From an uncultured Methylomonas sp. (lineage in GTDB: Bacteria > Pseudomonadota > Gammaproteobacteria > Methylococcales > Methylomonadaceae): a stretch of 64,000 nt of DNA. Positions 8,706-45,681 of this stretch are shown one piece after another. The stretch spans positions 1-64,000 of the forward strand of contig CAKZJE010000045.1 of the NCBI GenBank assembly GCA_936941155.1. Reading direction: 5' to 3'. Below the pieces are notes generated by a model that saw only the letters and a program-made list of their open reading frames with translations, was not told the origin of the DNA and did not search any database. Made by a program: the position numbers and the translations under genes. Within the stretch, counting starts at the first letter, position 1, and each line of letters opens with the position of its first letter.

Positions 8706-9268
8706 ACACACACATCATCGCCGGCATTGACGAAGTCGGACGCGGCACGCTGATTGGTTCAGTGGTTGCGGCGGCGGTGATTTTAAACCCTGCCAAACCG
8801 ATTGCTGGTTTAACCGATTCCAAAAAACTCACCGAAAAACGCCGCGAACAACTGGCGCAAATTATCAAACGCGATGCGTTAGCGTGGGCAATTGGACGCG
8901 CTGAACCGAGCGAAATTGACCAGATTAATATTCTGCAAGCTTCCTTACTCGCGATGCAACGCGCTTTTAATGCTCTGCCAATCAAACCTGATTGGGTGAA
9001 AGTGGATGGCAACAAATATCCACCGATAGACTGCGCAGGCGAAACTATTATCAAAGGCGATTTAACTGAAGCCGAAATTTCTGCCGCTTCGATTTTGGCA
9101 AAAGTGCATCGCGACCACGAAATGTGGGTGTTAGAACAACTTTATCCAGGGTATGAAATTGCCAAACACAAAGGTTATGGCACAAAAACACATCTGGAAA
9201 AACTGCAACAACTCGGTGTTACGCCGCTCCATCGAAAATCTTTCGCTCCCATCAAAAAGCTGTTGTAA
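8702..9268 (+). CDS. rnhB: Ribonuclease HII with a non-canonical start codon
   Basis: Cleaves RNA of RNA-DNA hybrids and single ribonucleotides in DNA. The conserved N-terminal motif [10 protein letters not shown], with catalytic Asp and Glu, is encoded at about 8717-8746. That frame is closed by TAA at 8678, and no ATG, GTG or TTG lies between it and the motif. The first standard start (GTG 8762) would remove the catalytic residues. The best candidate is ATA at 8702, overlapping the lpxA stop as ATAA and giving (M)[17 protein letters not shown] at 8714 or 8717 is an alternative. Other family blocks are intact: LTDSKKL, VDGNKYP and [12 protein letters not shown]. The frame runs to the stop with no break, so the gene is probably functional. 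Confidence 0.85.
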
Positions 9269-9271
9269 ATC

Positions 9272-9820
9272 ATGCCGCGCTTATTTCTCGCTCTAGACCT
9301 CCCTCAAGAAATCAAACAATCACTCTTGCAACTGCCTCGCGCTTATTCGGGTGCACGTTGGCAAACGAGTGCGCAAATGCACATCACGCTGGTTTTTATC
9401 GGTGATTTGGATAAAAGCCGAATGCCAGAATTGCTGGAAATCTTATCTGAAATCAATGCCGAGCCGCTGAATTTAGCGTTAAAAGGCGTGGATTATTTTG
9501 GTTCAAATCGTTATCCACGCGTGTTATTTGCAAATGTGGAAAAAAATTCTGCCTTAGAGAAATTGCAAAAACAGGTTTATAAAGCGGTGGCGGCGATGGA
9601 TATTGAGTTGGAACGAAAAAAATATATTCCGCATGTGACGCTGGCACGATTAGACCGCACGCCTTATGAAAGTGTTGGGCAGTTTTTGGAAGCGGAGGCG
9701 TTATTCAAAACCGAGAGTTTCAGCATAGCGCAATTTCATTTATACAGTTCCAAACAAACCCGCGCGGGTTCAGAATATCGCATTGAAGCGAGTTTTCCTT
9801 TTGACAGAGAGGTTTTATGA
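9272..9820 (+). CDS. thpR: RNA 2',3'-cyclic phosphodiesterase ThpR (LigT family)
   Basis: 2H phosphoesterase that opens 2',3'-cyclic phosphate RNA ends. 182 residues. Both signature HxTL motifs are present: HITLVFIGD (about 32-40) and HVTLARL (about 121-127). The N-terminus PRLFLALDLP is typical. It starts 3 bases after rnhB. Its last codons lie in a 64-bp stretch repeated downstream of the following parDE pair, and its final residues FDREVL appear to come from the parDE junction; the second repeat copy reads on to its own in-frame stop. The stop overlaps the next ATG (ATGA). Confidence 0.92.
   Translation: MPRLFLALDLPQEIKQSLLQLPRAYSGARWQTSAQMHITLVFIGDLDKSRMPELLEILSEINAEPLNLALKGVDYFGSNRYPRVLFANVEKNSALEKLQKQVYKAVAAMDIELERKKYIPHVTLARLDRTPYESVGQFLEAEALFKTESFSIAQFHLYSSKQTRAGSEYRIEASFPFDREVL
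9738..9801 (+). repeat. 64-bp direct repeat, left copy (3' end of thpR)
   Basis: This segment of thpR is repeated at 10367-10430 with two mismatches. The two copies bracket the parDE pair, as expected if the pair entered the 3' end of thpR and the target was duplicated or regenerated. Confidence 0.9.
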
Positions 9821-10077
9821 TGCAAATTACCTTAAATTCCCATTACGAAATGTTGCTGCAAAACAAATTGGCAACCGGACTTTATGAATCGGTGAATGAG
9901 ATTCTGCAAGAGGCGTTGCATTTATTGGAAGAGCGCGACCAGCTTTATGAGTTGCAAATTACAAATTTACGCAACGAAATTCAGCAAGGTATCAATAGCG
10001 GTGAAGCTACGCCTTTGGATATTGAAGCAATAAAAACACGCGGACGGATTCGATTAGCCCAGCAAAAGGTTCAATAA
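9817..10077 (+). CDS. ParD/RHH-type antitoxin
   Basis: 86 residues. The N-terminal ITLNSHYEMLLQNKLATGLY followed by ESVNEILQEALHLLEERD matches the ribbon-helix-helix DNA-binding fold of ParD antitoxins (strand, then two helices). The charged C-terminal part would wrap around the toxin. Its ATG overlaps the thpR stop (ATGA), and its stop shares one base with the toxin start, so the pair is translationally coupled. ParD proteins normally autorepress their own operon, but no operator can be read confidently inside thpR. Confidence 0.8.
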   Translation: MMQITLNSHYEMLLQNKLATGLYESVNEILQEALHLLEERDQLYELQITNLRNEIQQGINSGEATPLDIEAIKTRGRIRLAQQKVQ

Positions 10078-10367
10078 TGGCGCAGTTGTTAAAACGCCCA
10101 CAAGCCGAAACCGATTTAGACGAAATTTGGTGGTATATCGCGCAAAATAATCCGAAAAATGCCGATAATTTTTTGGATTTTATTTTGGAACAGTGTCTGT
10201 TTTTGACACAGTCGCCCTATTCAGGCAAAAAACGCGATGAGTTATTGCAGGATTTACGCAGTTTTCCGGTGCGCAATTATGTGATTTTTTATTTTCCGTT
10301 GGAAAATGGTGTTGAGATTGTGCGGATTATGCACGGTTCGCGTGATATTGATAAGGTCGTTTTTTAA
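10077..10367 (+). CDS. ParE/RelE-family toxin
   Basis: 96 residues of the RelE/ParE fold. The opening KRPQAETDLDEIWWYIA is the typical ParE helix 1 region (KAxxDLxxIxxYIA), and the end VEIVRIMHGSRDI matches the family's last strands (RVLHGSRD). ParE toxins poison DNA gyrase, while RelE members cleave mRNA; the sequence alone favours ParE. Stop and start overlap with the antitoxin gene (TAATG). The second copy of the thpR-end repeat begins at the last base of the stop codon. Confidence 0.82.
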   Translation: MAQLLKRPQAETDLDEIWWYIAQNNPKNADNFLDFILEQCLFLTQSPYSGKKRDELLQDLRSFPVRNYVIFYFPLENGVEIVRIMHGSRDIDKVVF

Positions 10368-10430
10368 TTTATACAGTTCCAAACAAACCTGCGCGGGTTC
10401 AGAATATCGCATTGAAGCAAGTTTTCCTTT
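10367..10430 (+). repeat. 64-bp direct repeat, right copy (relic of thpR end)
   Basis: Matches 9738-9801 with two substitutions. Read in the thpR frame it continues as ASFPLLSVSS and stops about 20 bases later, which may be the original C-terminus of thpR before parDE arrived. Confidence 0.88.
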
Positions 10431-10489
10431 ATTGTCTGTTTCAAGCTAAGATGTTTTTGTTTTTAATGAAAAAAGAGGGATAACCTAAA

Positions 10490-10903
10490 ATGTCACAAAG
10501 TTTATCATTAGTCGAATACCAAGCTGATGAAGACGGCAATCTCTATGAAGATGATTGCCACGTTATTGAGTCGGCATTCATCACCCCAGAAGTTATTAAC
10601 TCCATCGAAGAACAAAGATTACTGGAAGATAAGCCGCTTCTTGAGGAAGTTGGAGCGACAGCATCTTCAGTCATGAAGTGTCTTGAAAACTCATCATTGG
10701 ATAAAGTTTTGTCTATTTTAGAAATTGAATTTATAAAGTTTCTAACCGCAGAGCCTGCAAATAACGTAAAAAGTCTCGTTATACGCGATGAAATTTCTGC
10801 TTTAATCAACGATTTCAGAACCATCACTAATCTGTATCATGTGATAAAGCTCAAAAAAGAAAAGTTTGAAAATTACCCCAATGTTGTTTTAAAGCTGGGC
10901 TGA
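10490..10903 (+). CDS. Acidic protein of unknown function, partner of the next gene
   Basis: 137 residues, soluble, strongly acidic at the N-terminus (EYQADEDGNLYEDDCHVIES) and mostly helical afterwards. No family is recognised. A GAGGGA ribosome site lies about 10 bases before the ATG. It is 3 bases from the next gene, a nuclease-like protein, so the two form a likely operon and may act as a pair. An immunity or regulatory role is only a guess from layout. Confidence 0.6.
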   Translation: MSQSLSLVEYQADEDGNLYEDDCHVIESAFITPEVINSIEEQRLLEDKPLLEEVGATASSVMKCLENSSLDKVLSILEIEFIKFLTAEPANNVKSLVIRDEISALINDFRTITNLYHVIKLKKEKFENYPNVVLKLG

Positions 10904-10906
10904 GCC

Positions 10907-11425
10907 ATGAGTTCAAATAAAGGCAAAGATGGCGAAATGCGGGTGATAAAAATCATTGCCGATATAGCAATTCAAGAAGAAGGTTTCGATTTTACGCGCC
11001 CGACTATTACGAATGAGAGCGATATGGGAGCGGATTTGATGATTAGGTCGTCACAACAGTCTCTTAATCGGATACTTCACATTGCCGCAGGAACTGTGCA
11101 ATCTACGAATGAATGCAGTACGGAACGGTCGAAAAAAGCAATTGAATCAAGAGTTGACGTAAAAACAACGCAAAGCAAGCTGCAAACAGATACCATCGAA
11201 AAGTTTGTTGCGGATGTGCATAAACATCCTAAATCTACGGGTCATATATTGATGGGCGGAAGTAATTTAACTGCTCCGGCACAACGAAAATTCGATCAAT
11301 ACCAAGCAGAATTTAAACAAAAAGGCAAAATATTGGGGTATATTTCAAATGATGGAATCAGCAGGCTTGAATCAGGTTATGCAAACTTGGTTAGTCTTGC
11401 ACCGAAAGAGAATGAAGTTGATTGA
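10907..11425 (+). CDS. PD-(D/E)XK-like nuclease domain protein
   Basis: 172 residues. The layout GKDGEMRVIKIIADI, then SDMGADLMIR, then VDVKTTQSK resembles the core of restriction-endonuclease-like (Mrr-type) folds: a Glu in the first helix, an Asp before a strand, and an acidic-x-Lys pair. The second half contains KFDQYQAEFKQKGKILGYIS, which may complete the fold. It follows the acidic protein with a 3-base gap. It could be a small restriction or defence nuclease, or a cryptic relic. The assignment rests on motif spacing only. Confidence 0.5.
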   Translation: MSSNKGKDGEMRVIKIIADIAIQEEGFDFTRPTITNESDMGADLMIRSSQQSLNRILHIAAGTVQSTNECSTERSKKAIESRVDVKTTQSKLQTDTIEKFVADVHKHPKSTGHILMGGSNLTAPAQRKFDQYQAEFKQKGKILGYISNDGISRLESGYANLVSLAPKENEVD

Positions 11426-33390: not shown

Positions 33391-33475
33391 AATAAGGCAT
33401 AAAAAAACCGCCCTTAAGTTTCCAAAAGGGCAGTTTTGGTTTTATTGATGATGTGCTTCCTTTCGTTCAGCACAT
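33391..33475 (+). repeat. T-H composite repeat before hicAB copy 1
   Basis: T (33400-33438; loop TTAAGTTTCC) is followed by H: ATGTGCT (33451-33457), loop TCCTTTCGTTC, AGCACAT (33469-33475). It lies just beyond the hicB stop and would terminate that minus-strand operon. It begins the 740-bp block duplicated at 35735-36478. Confidence 0.85.
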
Positions 33476-33482
33476 TTTGCAG

Positions 33483-33737
33483 CTAAGCGAATAAAGGCGA
33501 GATGGGTAAATTGACTTCTGGTTGATAGGTTATTTTGCAAGGCGGCGGTAATTCTTTATTTTGTTGGTGTAATAATTCAATCCACTCATCAATAATAATA
33601 CATAACTCCTGAAACACTTTTTTTTCATCAGTACCGTGACAACAATGTTCAATCAAGCCTGGCGCAGAACCCAAGTAGCAATCATCGGCTTCAGACCATT
33701 CCACCACTTTTAAATATCTATCACTTTCTTTTATCAT
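33483..33737 (-). CDS. hicB: HicB-type antitoxin, copy 1
   Basis: 84 residues. KYLKVVEWSE-type start (RYLKVVEWSEADDCYLGSAP), then GLIEHCCHGTDEKKVFQELC and EWIELLHQ match the RNase-H-like HicB fold that blocks HicA. The long C-terminal DNA-binding domain of many HicB proteins is lacking, so autoregulation by DNA binding is uncertain. It overlaps hicA by 4 bases (toxin first). Differs from copy 2 by one residue (PISPLFA against PILPLFA). Confidence 0.85.
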   Translation of the reverse strand: MIKESDRYLKVVEWSEADDCYLGSAPGLIEHCCHGTDEKKVFQELCIIIDEWIELLHQQNKELPPPCKITYQPEVNLPISPLFA

Positions 33738-33928
33738 TTTGCAGCCTCTTGCACTTTTTGTTTAACCAGCTTTTCTTGATAAGGTTTAGCATCATCACTC
33801 AGTTTTCCTGAAACGGTAATTCTATGCCCATCGGGATGTTCATAGTTTCTGTGACTGCCCTTGCCACCACGATTTACAAAGCCCGATTTTTCCAATTCAC
33901 TGAGCAATTCGCGTATCTTTTTAGGCAT
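33734..33928 (-). CDS. hicA: HicA-type mRNA interferase toxin, copy 1
   Basis: 64 residues with the double-stranded-RNA-binding-like HicA fold. The conserved GGKGSHRNYEHPDGHR carries the active-site His. HicA cleaves mRNA and tmRNA; HicB neutralises it. AGGAT lies about 5 bases before the ATG. The protein is identical to the copy at 36077-36271. Confidence 0.9.
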   Translation of the reverse strand: MPKKIRELLSELEKSGFVNRGGKGSHRNYEHPDGHRITVSGKLSDDAKPYQEKLVKQKVQEAAK

Positions 33929-34004
33929 AAAAATCCTGATTTATTTTTGCATCACAATTCGAGGAATAATTTTATCACGCACACAAAAAACCGCCGTTAA
34001 GTTT

Positions 34005-34168
34005 TGTCTGAATCAGGATTGACAGGATTTGAAGATTTACAAGATTTTTATCCTGATAATCCTATCATCTTGAAAATCCTGGTTCAGACAACAGGCGCAA
34101 AAAACCGCCCTTAAGTTTCCAAAAAGCGTTTTTTGTTTTATTGATGATGCGCTTCCTTTCGTTCAGCA
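34005..34168 (+). repeat. P-T-H composite repeat, copy between hicA-1 and the ATPase gene
   Basis: P 34005-34092 (right arm has GGTTCAGAC instead of GATTCAGAC). T 34099-34136, right arm damaged (AAAAAGCGTTTTTT). H 34147-34168 with GCGCT against AGCAC, one mismatch. It follows the ATPase stop and probably ends its transcript. Confidence 0.85.
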
Positions 34169-35721: not shown

Positions 35722-35818
35722 TTCGGATTCAGACAACAGGCACAAAAAAACCGCTCTTAAGTTTCCAAAAGGGCGGTTTTTGTTTTATCCGTGATGTGCT
35801 TCCTTTCGTTCAGCACAT
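35722..35818 (+). repeat. Half P-T-H composite repeat
   Basis: Only the right end of P remains (GGATTCAGACAACAGGCAC). T 35741-35780 is complete and H 35794-35818 has ATGTGCT/AGCACAT. It lies just beyond hicB copy 2. Confidence 0.85.
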
Positions 35819-35825
35819 TTTGCAG

Positions 35826-36080
35826 TTAAGCAAATAAAGGCAAGATGGGTAAATTGACTTCCGGTTGATAGGTTATTTTGCAAGGCGGCGGTAATTCTTT
35901 ATTTTGTTGGTGTAATAATTCAATCCACTCATCAATAATAATACATAACTCCTGAAACACTTTTTTTTCATCAGTACCGTGACAACAATGTTCAATCAAG
36001 CCTGGCGCAGAACCCAAGTAGCAATCATCGGCTTCAGACCATTCCACCACTTTTAAATATCTATCACTTTCTTTTATCAT
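35826..36080 (-). CDS. hicB: HicB-type antitoxin, copy 2
   Basis: 84 residues, 83 identical to copy 1 at 33483-33737. Same short form without a C-terminal DNA-binding domain, same 4-base overlap with hicA. The duplicate could cross-neutralise both HicA proteins. The near identity of coding and flanking DNA points to a recent duplication or ongoing gene conversion. Confidence 0.85.
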   Translation of the reverse strand: MIKESDRYLKVVEWSEADDCYLGSAPGLIEHCCHGTDEKKVFQELCIIIDEWIELLHQQNKELPPPCKITYQPEVNLPILPLFA

Positions 36081-36271
36081 TTTGCAGCCTCTTGCACTTT
36101 TTGTTTAACCAGCTTTTCTTGATAAGGTTTAGCATCATCACTCAGTTTTCCTGAAACGGTAATTCTATGCCCATCGGGATGTTCATAGTTTCTGTGACTG
36201 CCCTTGCCACCACGATTTACAAAGCCCGATTTTTCCAATTCACTGAGCAATTCGCGTATCTTTTTAGGCAT
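36077..36271 (-). CDS. hicA: HicA-type mRNA interferase toxin, copy 2
   Basis: 64 residues, identical to copy 1. Active-site His in GKGSHRNY. The same AGGAT ribosome site and upstream sequence as copy 1, followed outward by P and T repeats. Confidence 0.9.
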   Translation of the reverse strand: MPKKIRELLSELEKSGFVNRGGKGSHRNYEHPDGHRITVSGKLSDDAKPYQEKLVKQKVQEAAK

Positions 36272-36346
36272 AAAAATCCTGATTTATTTTTGCATCACAA
36301 TTCGAGGAATAATTTTATCACGCACACAAAAAACCGCCGTTAAGTT

Positions 36347-36479
36347 TTGTCTGAATCAGGATTGACAGGATTTGAAGATTTACAAGATTTTTATCCTGAT
36401 AATCCTATCATCTTGAAAATCCTGATTCAGACAACAGGCACAAAAAACCGCCCTTAAGTTTCCAAAAGGGCGGTTTTTA
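36347..36479 (+). repeat. P-T composite repeat between hicA-2 and the RelE gene
   Basis: P 36347-36435, T 36441-36479 (AAAACCGCCC / GGGCGGTTTTT). No H. It separates two divergent toxin-antitoxin operons. Confidence 0.85.
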
Positions 36480-36541
36480 TATTTTCGGAAGCTGGCAATT
36501 TTTTATAGCTAGAATGTATTAGCTTGGATACAATTAACACT

Positions 36542-36835
36542 ATGAAATACATCATTGAACAAACTGAAAGCTTTGCTAACTGGCATTCTACTTTGCGTGA
36601 TTTACGCGCAAAATCAGCTATTGCGCGACGCATCGAACGTGCGGAAAACGGCAATTTGGGCGACACCAAGTCTGCGGGTAGTGGCATATCTGAAATGCGG
36701 ATTGATGTGGGTGCTGGCTATCGGGTTTATTTCACAATTCGCAGTGGCTTAATGGTGATTCTTTTAGCGGGCGGTGATAAATCGACACAACAGGCTGACA
36801 TCAACCGCGCAATAAAACTGGCAAATGAGGTATAA
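36542..36835 (+). CDS. RelE/HigB-like toxin (phage Gp49-type)
   Basis: 97 residues from the ATG at 36542 (the frame opens at a TTG six codons earlier). WHSTLRDLRAKSAIARRIERA, then GDTKSAGSGISEMRIDVGAGYRVYF and LLAGGDKSTQQADI are the blocks of the addiction-module killer family TIGR02683, a RelE-superfold mRNA interferase. TACAAT at about 36530-36535 is a plausible -10 box. Toxin precedes antitoxin by 3 bases, the order of this family. Confidence 0.88.
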   Translation: MKYIIEQTESFANWHSTLRDLRAKSAIARRIERAENGNLGDTKSAGSGISEMRIDVGAGYRVYFTIRSGLMVILLAGGDKSTQQADINRAIKLANEV

Positions 36836-36838
36836 ATC

Positions 36839-37135
36839 ATGACAACGCAAGTTGAAAAATTACTCCCTTTCGATATGGTCGCTTTGCTTGATAGCGATGA
36901 AATGATTAGCGAATACCTATCGCAAGTGCTAGAAGACGGCGACAGCGATGAGCTAATTCGCGCCCTAGGTTACATCGCTAAAGCAAAAGGCATGACAAAA
37001 GTTGCGAAAGACTCAGGACTGGGGCGCGAGAGCTTATATAAAGCTCTTTCAGAAGGTGCGAAACCGCGTTTTGATACCGTTTTTAAAGTGATTAAAGCTC
37101 TTGGGATTAAGCTTCATGCTGAACCGGCTGTGTGA
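36839..37135 (+). CDS. HTH antitoxin partner of the RelE-like toxin
   Basis: 98 residues. FDMVALLDSDEMISEYLSQ leads into an Xre-type helix-turn-helix (AKAKGMTKVAKDSGLGRESL, then YKALSEGAKPRFDTVFKV), the TIGR02684 antidote pattern. It should bind and silence the toxin and autorepress the operon. It ends 8 bases before the next P repeat. Confidence 0.88.
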   Translation: MTTQVEKLLPFDMVALLDSDEMISEYLSQVLEDGDSDELIRALGYIAKAKGMTKVAKDSGLGRESLYKALSEGAKPRFDTVFKVIKALGIKLHAEPAV

Positions 37136-37313: not shown

Positions 37314-37388
37314 TTGCGTCAATTTCTTTGACAAACTCGTTTGATTCGATACACTTGGCTAACCTTAGCCAATAACGAGAATCTTATA

Positions 37389-37640
37389 ATGCAAGTCAAT
37401 ATGCTAGAGGCTAAAAACCGCCTCTCCAATCTGATTGTCGCCGTAGAACGCAATGAAGAAGTCATTATTGCCCGCAACGGCATTCCTGTTGCCAAAATTA
37501 TTAAATATACCGCCCCTAAAATTGCCGCTCCTGGCAGTTGGAAAGGTAAAGTCCCTTACAGCACCGATTGGAACAGTGTTGAAATCAATAGCGAAATAGC
37601 ACAACTTTTTAACGGTGAAAACAATGGCTTTACTGCTTGA
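37389..37640 (+). CDS. Phd/YefM-type antitoxin
   Basis: 83 residues from the ATG at 37389. MQVNMLEAKNRLSNLIVAV and NEEVIIARNGIPVAKI form the Phd/YefM DNA-binding fold. The C-terminal part (KVPYSTDWNSVEINSEIAQL) would neutralise the PIN toxin, with which it overlaps by 17 bases. Confidence 0.87.
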   Translation: MQVNMLEAKNRLSNLIVAVERNEEVIIARNGIPVAKIIKYTAPKIAAPGSWKGKVPYSTDWNSVEINSEIAQLFNGENNGFTA

Positions 37641-38001
37641 TACTTGTATTGTCTATGATTGGCTGATGGAGGAAATCAATGATCCGTATTGGATTAGTCG
37701 GATTCAAACCGAGGGTGCAATCGTTAGTGCTGTTTCAGTATGGGAAATGGCGATTAAAAATGGGTTAGGTAAAATGCCTCTGCCTTCGCTGGCTATTGCC
37801 GCAGATATTGAAGCGCAAGGTTTTCAATGGCTGAATATCACCGCTTTTCATGCGCAAACCGTGCTAGAGTTAGCGCATCATCACAAAGACCCCTTTGACC
37901 GCTTGCTTATCGCCCAATCCAAATATGAAGCGTTACAGATTGTGACTTATGATGCGATTTTTCAAGATTATCTTGATACGGTGATTGTGCTTAAAAAATG
38001 A
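37624..38001 (+). CDS. vapC: VapC-type PIN-domain toxin
   Basis: 125 residues from the ATG at 37624. The PIN acidic residues are visible in LLLDTCIVYDW (D near residue 6), SVWEMAIKNGLGK, DPFDRLLIAQ and TYDAIFQDY. PIN toxins are Mg-dependent RNases that often cut tRNA or rRNA. It overlaps its antitoxin gene, so translation is coupled. A decayed P and an intact T follow. Confidence 0.9.
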   Translation: MALLLDTCIVYDWLMEEINDPYWISRIQTEGAIVSAVSVWEMAIKNGLGKMPLPSLAIAADIEAQGFQWLNITAFHAQTVLELAHHHKDPFDRLLIAQSKYEALQIVTYDAIFQDYLDTVIVLKK

Positions 38002-40899: not shown

Positions 40900-43800
40900 A
40901 TGCAACCATCTTTTATCCACCTGCGCCTACACAGCGAATTCTCCCTTGTTGACGGCATCGTCAAAATCAAGCCTCTGGTTAAACGCCTGACAGAACTCAA
41001 CATGCCAGCGGTGGCGATCACCGAACAAGGCAATTTATTCTCGCTGGTGAAATTTTACAAAGCCACACTCGGCGCGGGCATTAAAGCGATTGCCGGCTCT
41101 GATGTTTACATTTTCAACCCTGAAGACCCCAGTAATCCGTATCATTTGACGCTGTTGGTGAATAATAAAGTCGGCTACGTCAGCTTGACCGAGTTAATTT
41201 CCAAAGCTTATCAAGAGGGGCAACATTTAGGCATTCCGATTTTAAAAGCGGAATGGATTGAGGAAAATCACGTCGGATTGATTGCTTTATCCGGTGCAAT
41301 GCAAGGTGAAGTCGGACGCGCATTAATCGCAGGAAAACCAGCTATTGCGGTTGAAAAAGCGCAAAAATGGGCAAGTGTTTTCAAAGACAGTTTTTATTTA
41401 GAAATTCAGCGCGTTGGCAAACTCGATGAAGAACGTTATATCCACGCCGCGATTCAATTAGCAATAGATTTGGATTTACCTGTTGTCGCCACCAATGACG
41501 TGCGCTTTTTGGATAAAAAAGATTTTGCCGCGCATGAAGTGCGAGTTTGCATCAATCAGGGACGGGTGTTAGATGATTCGCGCCGCCCAAAAAATTACAC
41601 CGAGCAGCAATATTTGCGCAGCAGCGAAGAAATGCAGGCGTTGTTTGCCGACATTCCCGAAGCGTTAGCAAACACGGTGGAAATCGCTAAACGTTGCAAT
41701 CTGCAACTCACGCTGGGCGAAAATTATCTCCCCGATTTTCCTGTTCCCGAAGGCATTACTTTAGAGCAACATTTTCGCCAAGCTTCCAAACAAGGGTTAG
41801 AGGAACGCTTGATTGAACATCCGCCGATTGGCAAAGGCACGTTTGCAGAAAACCGTATCGCTTACGATCAACGCTTAGAAATTGAACTGAACGTGATTTG
41901 CCAAATGGGTTTCCCCGGCTACTTTATGATTGTGGCGGACTTTATTCAATGGGCGAAAAATCACGCGATTCCAGTCGGGCCCGGTCGGGGTTCGGGTGCA
42001 GGTTCTTTGGTCGCTTATGTGTTAAAAATCACTGACTTAGACCCGTTAGAATTTGAATTGCTGTTCGAGCGATTTTTGAATCCTGAACGGGTTTCGATGC
42101 CTGACTTTGATATTGACTTCTGCATGGACAGACGCGACGAGGTGATTGATTATGTAGCGCGGCGATATGGGCGCAATCGGGTGTCGCAAATCATCACTTA
42201 CGGTTCGATGGCAGCAAAAGCGGTCATCCGTGACGTGGGGCGCGTACTAAATCACGGTTATGGTTTTGTGGATAGATTGGCAAAATTGATTCCGTTTGAA
42301 ATTGGCATGACGCTCGATAAAGCCTTAAAAGACAGCTCGGAATTGCGCGGGCTGTATGAATCGGATGACGAAGTTAAGAATCTGATTAATATGGCATTAT
42401 CGTTGGAAGGTGTGGTCAGAAATGCCGGAAAACACGCGGGTGGCGTGGTGATTTCACCGACAAAATTGACCGATTTTTCCCCACTTTATTGTGATGAGGC
42501 GGGAAATAATCTAGTCACACAATTCGACAAAGATGACGTTGAAGCGGTCGGTTTGGTGAAGTTCGACTTTTTAGGCTTGCGCACTCTGACCATTATTGAT
42601 TGGGCGTTGCAGACCATTAATAAGAAGAAACGCAGCCAAGGTAAGGCAGAAGTCGATATTGCGCAAATTCCGCGCGATGATGCTGATTCCTATAAATTGC
42701 TGCAAAATGCGCAAACCACCGCCGTGTTTCAGTTGGAATCGCGCGGCATGAAAGAACTCATCAGCCGCTTAAAGCCGGACTGTTTTGATGACATCATCGC
42801 GCTGGTGGCGTTATATCGTCCGGGCCCATTGGAATCGGGAATGGTGGATGATTATGTGAAAGTGAAACACGGTCAGCAAGCCGCTGAATACGCGCATCCG
42901 TTATTAATTCCGGTGTTAAAACCCACTAACGGCGTGATTCTCTATCAAGAGCAGGTGATGCAAATCGCCCGTGAAATGGCGGGCTACACGCTAGGCGGCG
43001 CGGATATGCTGCGGCGTTGTTTAAGCGGTTCAACGCAAGTGTTGGATGTGGCGAGTGGTCAACTCGTCAGCTTGCAAGAAATTGCTGATAATCCAAACTA
43101 TTGGCTAGGACGCAAGGTTTTTTCATTAGATTTAAATAGTCAAAAAATCGTCACTCAACCGATTACCGCGATTTATCCAAACGGTGTACGTCAAGTTTGG
43201 GAAATTACGACTAAAACCCATCGAAAAATTCGAGCAACCGCTGACCATCTGTTTTATACGATACAAGGCTGGCAAGTATTAGAAAATTTTTCTGTTGGTG
43301 ATAGTATTGGTTTAGCAAAACAATTGCCGATTGAACATGCAAGTTCTATTTCTGATGCACAAATTAAATTAACCGCTTATTTAATAGGTGATGGTCATTT
43401 ATCCACTAAAAAACCATCGCATAGTTATTTTTGCAATAGTGATGATGATTTAATTGCAGATTTTAATCAATGTGCAGTTGAATTGTTTGGAAAACCTGCA
43501 CCTTTAGATTATCAATATCATCCGAATAAAAAAACAGTCACTTATGCTCGGATTGGATTTATCACTGAATTTAATCAATGGATTGATAGCCATATTAAAC
43601 GCGCTCATTCAAATGATAAAGAAATTCCGGCATGGGTTTATCAATTATCAGCAAAACAATTAGCGTTATTTTTAGGTATTTTGTGGTCAACGGATGGCAG
43701 TTTTGATACTGGAATTGGACATACGGATTATACTTCGACTTCGCGTTTATTAATTGAACAATTACAGCATTTATTATTACGCTTAGGAATTGTTGGTTTA

Positions 43801-45681
43801 TTTAATATCAAAAAAATAACCTATAAAAACCAGCCGCATATTTCTTATCGTGTGCAAATTACAGGACGTGAGGATTTTTTAAAGTTTCATCAAATAATTA
43901 CGCCGTTTTTAAGCCTAGATAAAGCGCGAAAAGCACAGCTTTGTTATGAACGTGTTAGCGTTAAACTAAAAAATCAATCCAAACATCAATTGCCTTGTGC
44001 AGTCACTCATTTAATTGCCGAATCAAAACAAGTGAGTGGTATGACATGGGCAGAAATTGATGCAGCAATGGCAATGCCAAAAGGCACAATGTCGAGTGGC
44101 TTGAATTTTAAAACGCCACGCCGTGAATTATCACGTCACCGAGTTCATTATTTTTCCCAAGCATTGAGCGATTCAAAATTAAAAGCCATTGCAGATTCGG
44201 AAGTCTTTTGGGATAAGATTGTTAGCATTGAATATATTGGTGAAGAAAATGTTTTTGATTTAACTATTCCAGAGACACATAACTTTATTGCCAATGATTT
44301 TATTGCCCATAATTGCATGGGCAAAAAGAAACCCGATGAAATGGCAAAAGAGCGCGATAAATTTTTATCTGGCTCAATCCAAAATCAAATTGATGAAAAA
44401 GTCGCGAATTATATTTTCGATTTGATGGAGAAATTCGCGGGGTATGGTTTTAATAAAAGTCACTCTGCTGCTTATGCTTTAGTCGCCTATCAAACCGCGT
44501 GGCTAAAAGCCCATTATCCGGCGGAATTTATGGCAGCTGTTTTGTCTGCCGATATGGATAACACCGATAAAATTGTGGTGCTGGTGGAAGAGTGTCGGCA
44601 AATGAAACTCACGGTTTGCCCGCCTAACGTCAACCTTTCTGAGCATCAATTTACCGTAAACAAAGTCGGGCAAATTGTGTATGGACTAGGCGCGATTAAA
44701 GGCGCGGGGCAATCGGCTTTGGATGATTTGCTGGCGGAACGGCGCGAAAACGGTGATTTTTCCAGTTTTTATGATTTGTGCAAACGCACGGTGAATCGCA
44801 AAGTCAATCGCCGCGTGATGGAATCGCTGATTAAATCCGGCGCGTTTGATAGTTTAGATGACAATCCAGCGAAATTGTTTGCGCAATTACCCGAAGCGTT
44901 GCGGATGGCGGAACAATACGGCAAATCCGCTGCGACTGGGCAAAATGATTTTTTTGGCATGATGGATGAAGAAGCCGAAACCGCTGATCCGGTGTTTGAA
45001 ATCACTCACGTTGAACCCTGGACAATGCGTGAACGGCTGGAAGCTGAAAAAATCACCTTAGGTTTGTATTTAACCGGACATCCGATAGATCAATATGAGC
45101 AGGAATTAAAAAACTTCACTTCGGGAAAAATTGCCAAGTTGATTGAAGATGCGGATAAAACACGCGGCAAAATGGAAGTGAAAATCGCAGGTTTTATTGT
45201 CGATATGAAATTGCAAGCCGATAAAGGTCGCTGCTTTGCGATGTTGGATGACAGAAGTGAACGCTTAGATGTGGCAATTTTCAGTGAAGTTTATGAGCAA
45301 TCTCGCCATCTTTTGTCTAAAGATAATTTGTTGATTGTGGAAGGCACGTTGGAAAAAAATAGTTTTTCTGGTGCATTGCGGATGACAGCAAAAAAACTGT
45401 ATGGCATTGAGCAAGCGCGGGCAACGTTTGCGAATGGTTTATTTTTTGAATGGTCTGTGCAGCATAATTCGTGTTCAACCTTGGAGTTTATGCAAACCTT
45501 GCGAGAAATTCTAGTGCCGTTTCGGGGGGGAGAATGCCGCTTAATTATGCGCTATGTGTCCGCGAATGCAGTGGCAAATTTGGTGTTAGGGGATGAATGG
45601 AAAGTGCATGTTAGCGATGAATTGTTAGTGCGTTTGCAACGGTTTTCAGCCATTTCGGGTATGGAAGTAAAATATAAATAA
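40900..45681 (+). CDS. dnaE: DNA polymerase III alpha subunit with an in-frame intein
   Basis: Replicative polymerase. 1593 residues as encoded, 1161 after removal of a 432-residue intein, the normal DnaE length. The PHP domain opens with FIHLRLHSEFSLVDGI. The polymerase carboxylates lie in PDFDIDFCMDRR, preceded by GPGRGSGAGSLVAYVL. The intein interrupts GGADMLRR / CMGKKKPDEM, a conserved finger-region block, so the protein cannot work without splicing. The end carries an OB domain (about MEVKIAGFIVDMKLQADKG) and a tail domain. In many gammaproteobacteria dnaE follows rnhB; here it is 31.6 kb away. Confidence 0.97.
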   Translation: MQPSFIHLRLHSEFSLVDGIVKIKPLVKRLTELNMPAVAITEQGNLFSLVKFYKATLGAGIKAIAGSDVYIFNPEDPSNPYHLTLLVNNKVGYVSLTELISKAYQEGQHLGIPILKAEWIEENHVGLIALSGAMQGEVGRALIAGKPAIAVEKAQKWASVFKDSFYLEIQRVGKLDEERYIHAAIQLAIDLDLPVVATNDVRFLDKKDFAAHEVRVCINQGRVLDDSRRPKNYTEQQYLRSSEEMQALFADIPEALANTVEIAKRCNLQLTLGENYLPDFPVPEGITLEQHFRQASKQGLEERLIEHPPIGKGTFAENRIAYDQRLEIELNVICQMGFPGYFMIVADFIQWAKNHAIPVGPGRGSGAGSLVAYVLKITDLDPLEFELLFERFLNPERVSMPDFDIDFCMDRRDEVIDYVARRYGRNRVSQIITYGSMAAKAVIRDVGRVLNHGYGFVDRLAKLIPFEIGMTLDKALKDSSELRGLYESDDEVKNLINMALSLEGVVRNAGKHAGGVVISPTKLTDFSPLYCDEAGNNLVTQFDKDDVEAVGLVKFDFLGLRTLTIIDWALQTINKKKRSQGKAEVDIAQIPRDDADSYKLLQNAQTTAVFQLESRGMKELISRLKPDCFDDIIALVALYRPGPLESGMVDDYVKVKHGQQAAEYAHPLLIPVLKPTNGVILYQEQVMQIAREMAGYTLGGADMLRRCLSGSTQVLDVASGQLVSLQEIADNPNYWLGRKVFSLDLNSQKIVTQPITAIYPNGVRQVWEITTKTHRKIRATADHLFYTIQGWQVLENFSVGDSIGLAKQLPIEHASSISDAQIKLTAYLIGDGHLSTKKPSHSYFCNSDDDLIADFNQCAVELFGKPAPLDYQYHPNKKTVTYARIGFITEFNQWIDSHIKRAHSNDKEIPAWVYQLSAKQLALFLGILWSTDGSFDTGIGHTDYTSTSRLLIEQLQHLLLRLGIVGLFNIKKITYKNQPHISYRVQITGREDFLKFHQIITPFLSLDKARKAQLCYERVSVKLKNQSKHQLPCAVTHLIAESKQVSGMTWAEIDAAMAMPKGTMSSGLNFKTPRRELSRHRVHYFSQALSDSKLKAIADSEVFWDKIVSIEYIGEENVFDLTIPETHNFIANDFIAHNCMGKKKPDEMAKERDKFLSGSIQNQIDEKVANYIFDLMEKFAGYGFNKSHSAAYALVAYQTAWLKAHYPAEFMAAVLSADMDNTDKIVVLVEECRQMKLTVCPPNVNLSEHQFTVNKVGQIVYGLGAIKGAGQSALDDLLAERRENGDFSSFYDLCKRTVNRKVNRRVMESLIKSGAFDSLDDNPAKLFAQLPEALRMAEQYGKSAATGQNDFFGMMDEEAETADPVFEITHVEPWTMRERLEAEKITLGLYLTGHPIDQYEQELKNFTSGKIAKLIEDADKTRGKMEVKIAGFIVDMKLQADKGRCFAMLDDRSERLDVAIFSEVYEQSRHLLSKDNLLIVEGTLEKNSFSGALRMTAKKLYGIEQARATFANGLFFEWSVQHNSCSTLEFMQTLREILVPFRGGECRLIMRYVSANAVANLVLGDEWKVHVSDELLVRLQRFSAISGMEVKYK
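43018..44313 (+). mobile_element. DnaE intein with LAGLIDADG homing endonuclease
   Basis: 432 residues from Cys1 (CLSGSTQVLD) to the terminal His-Asn (NFIANDFIAHN), followed by Cys+1 of the extein. Block B is RATADHLF (T74-x-x-H77). Blocks C and E, the two dodecapeptides of a LAGLIDADG endonuclease, are LIGDGHL (122-128) and LWSTDGSF (222-229), each with its acidic residue, so homing may still be active. Block F is DKIVSIEYIGEENVFDLT. Codon use is more A/T-ending than in the exteins, consistent with horizontal arrival. Class 1 splicing is expected. Confidence 0.96.

Follow-up and report, generated by a model that had tools for sequence, protein, structure and literature searches.

A parD-parE pair between two copies of the thpR gene end in a Methylomonas genome, probably one of several module insertions made without an integrase

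Integrative elements at gene 3' ends, bounded by attL and attR, rebuild the end of the gene which they enter and keep the displaced end beside them. A gene end rebuilt in the same way is found in the 64,000-nt stretch analyzed here (the window; positions 1 to 64,000 of contig CAKZJE010000045.1 from an uncultured Methylomonas sp.), where an intact parD-parE toxin-antitoxin (TA) pair is enclosed by two copies of the end of the gene thpR. Here, however, there is no integrase, and among the loci of this kind described below the target is different at every one.

Restriction-modification (R-M) gene complexes are known to insert with long target duplication (Nobusato 2000; Furuta 2010, as presented in PMC3031569 and PMC3874152). 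The two situations are alike in that a small addiction-type pair is inserted without a transposase and is flanked by long target repeats of variable length, of the order of 100 bp. They differ in the cargo, which here consists of type II TA and PD-(D/E)XK genes, in the position of the repeats, which here lie at gene ends and leave the host gene whole, and in the silent-site divergence seen here at several loci. For the type VI clusters of Vibrio, PMC5361080 describes homology-facilitated illegitimate recombination of effector-immunity modules. There, as here, one side is anchored by homology and the other is illegitimate, and displaced gene 3' ends and stacked modules stay behind; the anchor is the effector cluster, whereas here it would be unrelated core genes (thpR, enolase, hsdM, uvrB), with TA genes as cargo. 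A third case is the insertion of R-M systems into operons (PMC4615327), which resembles the present locus in that addiction genes are co-directional in a host operon; the operon passage of that article mentions no gene-end duplication, whereas here there is also a stop-start overlap with the host gene. A literature search, covering titles and the starts of abstracts, returned no TA modules between duplicated host-gene ends, which does not establish their absence from print. The locus most likely reflects an integrase-free route akin to the R-M and type VI insertions, which would here be recurrent for TA modules. The recurrence within one genome may be the part that specialists do not expect.

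The gene thpR (9272..9820, + strand) codes for an RNA 2',3'-cyclic phosphodiesterase of the 2H/LigT family with 182 aa (Pfam/NCBIfam LigT_PEase). Its end at 9738..9801 is present again at 10367..10430 on the same strand, with 62/64 positions identical and a spacing of 629, and the ungapped match runs on upstream to 9734/10363 to give 68 nt at 96%. The initial annotation had pointed out this repeat with its two mismatches, and the alignment agrees. Shuffling 8801-11200 at the mononucleotide level 300 times gave at most 33 matching positions in a 64-nt pair at spacing 629, against 62 observed. A search with the thpR tail extended over the whole 4.26-Mb draft genome (124 contigs) and found just these two copies of it. 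Copy 1 is followed by a left junction segment (9802..9816, + strand; delimited by the junction sequence and by comparison with L051), which forms the new C-terminus of ThpR and contains a Shine-Dalgarno-like AGAGAGG. As had been read from the sequence, the TGA stop of thpR overlaps the start of parD as ATGA; a further in-frame ATG is found at 9820. In the thpR frame, copy 2 continues to ..ASFPLLSVSS with a stop at 10449, the now silent ..LLSVSS and its stop occupying 10431..10449 (+ strand; assigned from the reading frame and the relatives), and the present thpR has FPFDREVL where copy 2 gives FPLLSVSS. The phosphodiesterase model covers residues 2-176 of 182, and the junction is therefore placed just past the conserved domain. 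The repeat also holds a perfect 14-bp palindrome, AACCCGCGCGGGTT, at 9757-9770, ~47 bp upstream of parD; it is one of five such 14-mers within the window.

The direction of change can be read from the relatives. In the sister species (G002) ThpR is 75% identical at the amino acid level and its C-terminus reads PLKTGYSAESLERTEF / FPLKTGYSAESLERTEF; the gene has a single tail with no parDE behind it, and dnaE starts 32 nt past it. The two next homologues, from G008 (51%) and G034 (50%), end in YPLGQASSL and YPLEQSSPI, and in these genomes too thpR has a single tail and is not followed by parDE. The 'PL' continuation is thus common to all three closest homologues and to copy 2, and it is missing from the present thpR, which identifies copy 2 as the ancestral end and the tail that ThpR has now (DREVL) as junction sequence. 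The initial annotation had regarded copy 2, continuing to SVSS and a stop, as the probable ancestral C-terminus and the present end as composed of junction residues, and the comparison supports both ideas. It had also asked whether relatives lacking parDE already carry the repeat, or whether insertion-free homologues end in FDREVL; neither was found among these three. The locus has two of the features of long target duplication, a flanking direct repeat (62/64) and empty sites with a single copy in relatives. Only one difference between the copies can be polarized, and there copy 1 has the G002 state and copy 2 is the changed one (R to C).

The enclosed genes are parD (9817..10077, + strand; 86 aa, or 85 aa from the ATG at 9820), which matches ParD_antitoxin (PF03693, 4e-11; TIGR02606, 2.6e-14), and parE (10077..10367, + strand; 96 aa), which matches ParE_toxin (PF05016, 1.6e-20) and chain A of 6x0a (8e-20), so that the earlier naming of the pair as parDE stands. 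Solved ParD and ParE chains in PDB match both window proteins, and the overlap of 1 nt between the parD stop and the parE start belongs to a layout which fits adjacent type II ParD (ribbon-helix-helix) and ParE genes. The parE stop TAA (10365-10367) lies on the right junction, its last base being the one with which the 64-nt copy 2 begins. The closest parDE homologue, in G082 (80% aa identity in ParE), aligns with the window at 9817-10364 alone, from the start of parD to the last codon of parE, and the flanks are unrelated; its ParE ends VLFK followed by a stop, that of the window VVF followed by TAA. Since the match is confined to the coding region, the piece gained appears to be a promoterless coding unit. 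The dN/dS values against G082 are 0.13 for parD and 0.10 for parE, which indicates purifying selection on both genes relative to that homologue, and their predicted function is that of a toxin-antitoxin pair. The third-position GC of parDE resembles that of the neighbouring genes. A plasmid or phage source was considered and is unsupported, the best plasmid match having 50% identity and the single viral match being weak.

The gap of 15 nt between the repeat and parD is too short for a parDE promoter. Upstream of thpR lies rnhB (ribonuclease HII; 8762..9268, + strand; Pfam RNase_HII 2e-34), whose stop is 3 nt from the thpR ATG and whose real start is probably further upstream, and both genes belong to an operon-like run downstream of lpxA. 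A scan of the + strand from 9200 to the parD start (9200-9820) gave no sigma-70-like promoter, and scans of this kind are weak. Because no such site was seen back to 9200, the simplest reading is that parDE would be expressed from the rnhB-thpR transcript.

The initial annotation had proposed a search for duplications at other gene 3' ends beside TA pairs, and such cases were found. We used a scan which is blind to content. It looks for direct repeats that are 40-500 bases long, have an identity of 75% or more and lie 250-5000 bases apart, with copy one at the end of an open reading frame (ORF) with 150 codons or more and copy two outside such ORFs, past the same end. An initial content-blind sample covered 800 kb, with 3 matches in 400 kb of the own genome and 0 in 400 kb of two control genomes (the first 200 kb each of G085 and G028). 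When the own-genome scan was widened to 1,177,765 bases (28%), it yielded 10 pairs of duplicated gene ends, which belong to 9 genes, and all 10 enclose TA-like modules or PD-(D/E)XK "transposase" genes; the remnant was on the expected side in 10 pairs and on the opposite side in 2. The target sequences are unrelated, 46 to 173 bp long, and lie at both 5' and 3' ends.

Six of the genes have a duplicated 3' end, five of them enclosing TA-like genes and the sixth PD-(D/E)XK. Apart from thpR with ParD and ParE, they are hsdM (L255:10283-12703), with a TacA1-like antitoxin and GNAT pair between hsdM and hsdS and the last 56 bases repeated at 96%; the enolase gene (L310:9501-11862), with a TacA1-like antitoxin and a GNAT gene in two frames enclosed by a repeat of 173 bp and 84%; a TPR gene with DUF4160 and DUF2442; an nSTAND1 gene with PDDEXK_3 and PIN; and a 223-aa gene (on C13) with PDDEXK_2 and one further gene without family assignment. 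The other three genes have a duplicated 5' end with PDDEXK_2 genes ahead of each. At one of them (L299:7152-11711) tandem PDDEXK_2 (Rpn-like) genes lie ahead of a signal-peptide gene and come after copies of its 5' end, and the remaining two (L270, L314) are similar.

Another survey started from the TA modules themselves, in the own genome and in the family. A direct repeat spanning the module was found at 13/90 unique ParE/ParD loci (103 records), at 2/30 PIN loci, at 1/30 Phd loci and at 1/29 thpR control loci. The inspected ParE/ParD cases were mostly dispersed intergenic or terminator-like repeats, REP-like elements, or tandem related antitoxin or toxin genes. With such trivial causes a spanning repeat by itself is weak evidence, and the gene-end criterion alone separates the pattern. 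Applied to the TA-centred set (42 stretches, 837 kb), this criterion picked out 8 stretches. Modules of TA-like or PD-(D/E)XK type are present in 6 of them: the window, uvrB next to a gene for a DUF2281 protein (L102), a formylmethanofuran-dehydrogenase-like amidohydrolase gene with a DUF2283 module (L108), a 1429-aa ORF with DUF433/DUF5615 (L093), a PDDEXK_2 case (L087) and a Wzt-type ABC ATPase gene (L254:3463-8618, contig C25 of G009). We take DUF2281, DUF2283, DUF433/DUF5615 and DUF4160/DUF2442 to be TA-type partners. In the ATPase case, reached from one of the PIN loci of the survey, four TA-like modules (nucleotidyltransferase, VapBC-like, KilA-N and PIN pairs) are stacked ahead of the intact gene and are set apart by three partial direct copies of its 5' end, here called a, b and c (272 bp at 89%, 61 bp at 93% and 78 bp at 100%). 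A seventh match (L113) is a dispersed repeat array. The same anatomy is seen in the separately assembled genomes G009, G017 and G209, and the cases extend to sister genera. A RelBE-like pair in G193 (L067:269-1776) resembled a second case but is left as ambiguous, since its adjoining segment matches another contig; 100-bp direct repeats of 98% around that pair end at a parD start, and the neighbouring parE has an internal stop.

The insertion behind thpR was probably made without an integrase, as one case of a recurrent entry of TA-like modules in this and related genomes. We propose that parD-parE came in as a promoterless coding unit by recombination, with no integrase of its own, and that the end of thpR was doubled in the process. 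The copy before the pair would provide a new short C-terminus for ThpR and a parD start overlapping the thpR stop, and the copy after it would be the ancestral end, surviving as a dead remnant. With this arrangement thpR would remain functional, parDE would be the last genes expressed on the rnhB-thpR transcript, and parD would be translationally coupled to thpR through the ATGA. The route we prefer is that the module enters on DNA from a relative, still attached to the relative's version of the neighbouring gene end. The donor gene end would pair with the resident gene, illegitimate joining slightly upstream would close the other side and duplicate the end, and selection would retain those insertions that spare the host gene. 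The junctions are consistent with one side in homology and the other without it, as in homology-facilitated illegitimate recombination. The sequences show the anatomy, the order of ancestral and new end, and the recurrence; the route is inferred.

The main rival is a strict insertion with long target duplication. It states that a staggered break or a replication template switch re-copied the 64 bp of thpR while parDE was captured, without any donor thpR sequence, and that copy 2 has drifted since. Identity between the two thpR copies is 97%, one of their two internal differences is the R to C replacement, with copy 1 agreeing with the sister species, and a short TTT/ATTT identity is found at the right junction; all of this suits the rival. 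Against it stands the divergence of the copies at other loci. Between the enolase copies 6 changes are silent and 1 is a replacement; the corresponding counts are 4 and 0 for the 223-aa gene and, for the ABC ATPase, 18 and 11 (copy a), 4 and 0 (copy b) and none (copy c), so that enolase, the 223-aa gene and copies a and b differ mainly silently, unlike a drifting dead copy. When the eight 3'-end cases are summed, pS comes to 0.215 and pN to 0.053. The comparison with free drift of one copy used a ratio of 0.55, chosen by us, and a one-sided binomial test, with p = 0.007 for enolase, 0.002 for the summed 3'-end cases and 0.0001 for ABC copies a and b. The silent-site excess speaks for a divergence of the copies while both were parts of working genes, and so, at some loci, for a module that brought the gene end of a donor. 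Several observations weigh on the other side. No donor strain carrying thpR-parDE was found. The thpR copies differ by 1 silent and 2 replacement changes in aligned codons, too few to separate a donor-brought end from duplication and drift. In the TPR case replacement changes per site are as many as silent ones (ratio 1.14), which fits drift, and the uvrB copies (1 silent, 3 replacement) have no silent excess. One gene-end duplication of the TA-centred set (L116, the eighth match) encloses a flavodoxin gene and no TA genes, and the own-genome sample consists of long contigs first found through TA hits and may be TA-rich. On balance we regard the strict insertion as the less likely of the two. 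Two other explanations have been considered. A recombinase, since lost or acting in trans, could have joined a parDE circle with a 64-bp attP to an attB at the thpR 3' end, and such an element might show what is seen here: a rebuilt gene end that leaves the displaced one in place, which is also true of classical islands, and a palindrome inside the repeat. The insert of ~565 bp holds parD and parE only and no recombinase, however, and the other loci differ in target sequence, in length (46 to 173 bp) and in the use of 5' or 3' ends, so that no single enzyme fits; we consider this very improbable. That the assembly merged two strains, with and without parDE, might be suspected in a draft of 124 contigs, but a false join would require reads that run from the parE end into the start of the tail, copy 2 has mutations of its own, and the anatomy recurs in three independent assemblies, which leaves an artefact hardly credible.

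How chromosomal TA modules move without transposases of their own is a long-standing question. The second, dead copy of a gene end beside a module is a mark of arrival which can be counted genome-wide and gives both direction and relative age, and the same signature reveals whether gene-end sequence of foreign origin came with the module. In the thpR and amidohydrolase cases the start of the module overlaps the host stop or lies within a few bases of it, which would be a route by which modules become tied to core operons. A more general model, in which the TA modules of this methanotroph family spread integrase-free, joined to a core-gene end that serves as landing site and is duplicated at each landing, is tentative and somewhat doubtful at present. 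If it is true, past TA arrivals could be counted in a genome from the fossil record that they leave at core genes which are otherwise intact.

The host is most likely a methanotroph, since its genome holds a gene of the pmoA/amoA family. The genes thpR and dnaE, adjacent in the sister species, are 31 kb apart in the window (10450-40890), with thiC and others between them. A 30-kb mobile island was considered for this interval and rejected, as it carries core genes such as thiC; the separation is therefore taken as a distinct rearrangement, starting just past the thpR remnant. The window dnaE (40900-45681) carries an intein (Intein_splicing 1.9e-23) that includes a LAGLIDADG homing endonuclease (LAGLIDADG_3 9e-17), and the dnaE of the sister species has none (1161 vs 1593 aa). 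Between 28900 and 38630 a dispersed repeat of ~130 bp in many copies and a 730-bp duplication of 98% identity (33395-34124 / 35738-36467) occur between TA pairs (Gp49/antidote at 36524-37135 and Phd/PIN at 37341-38001).
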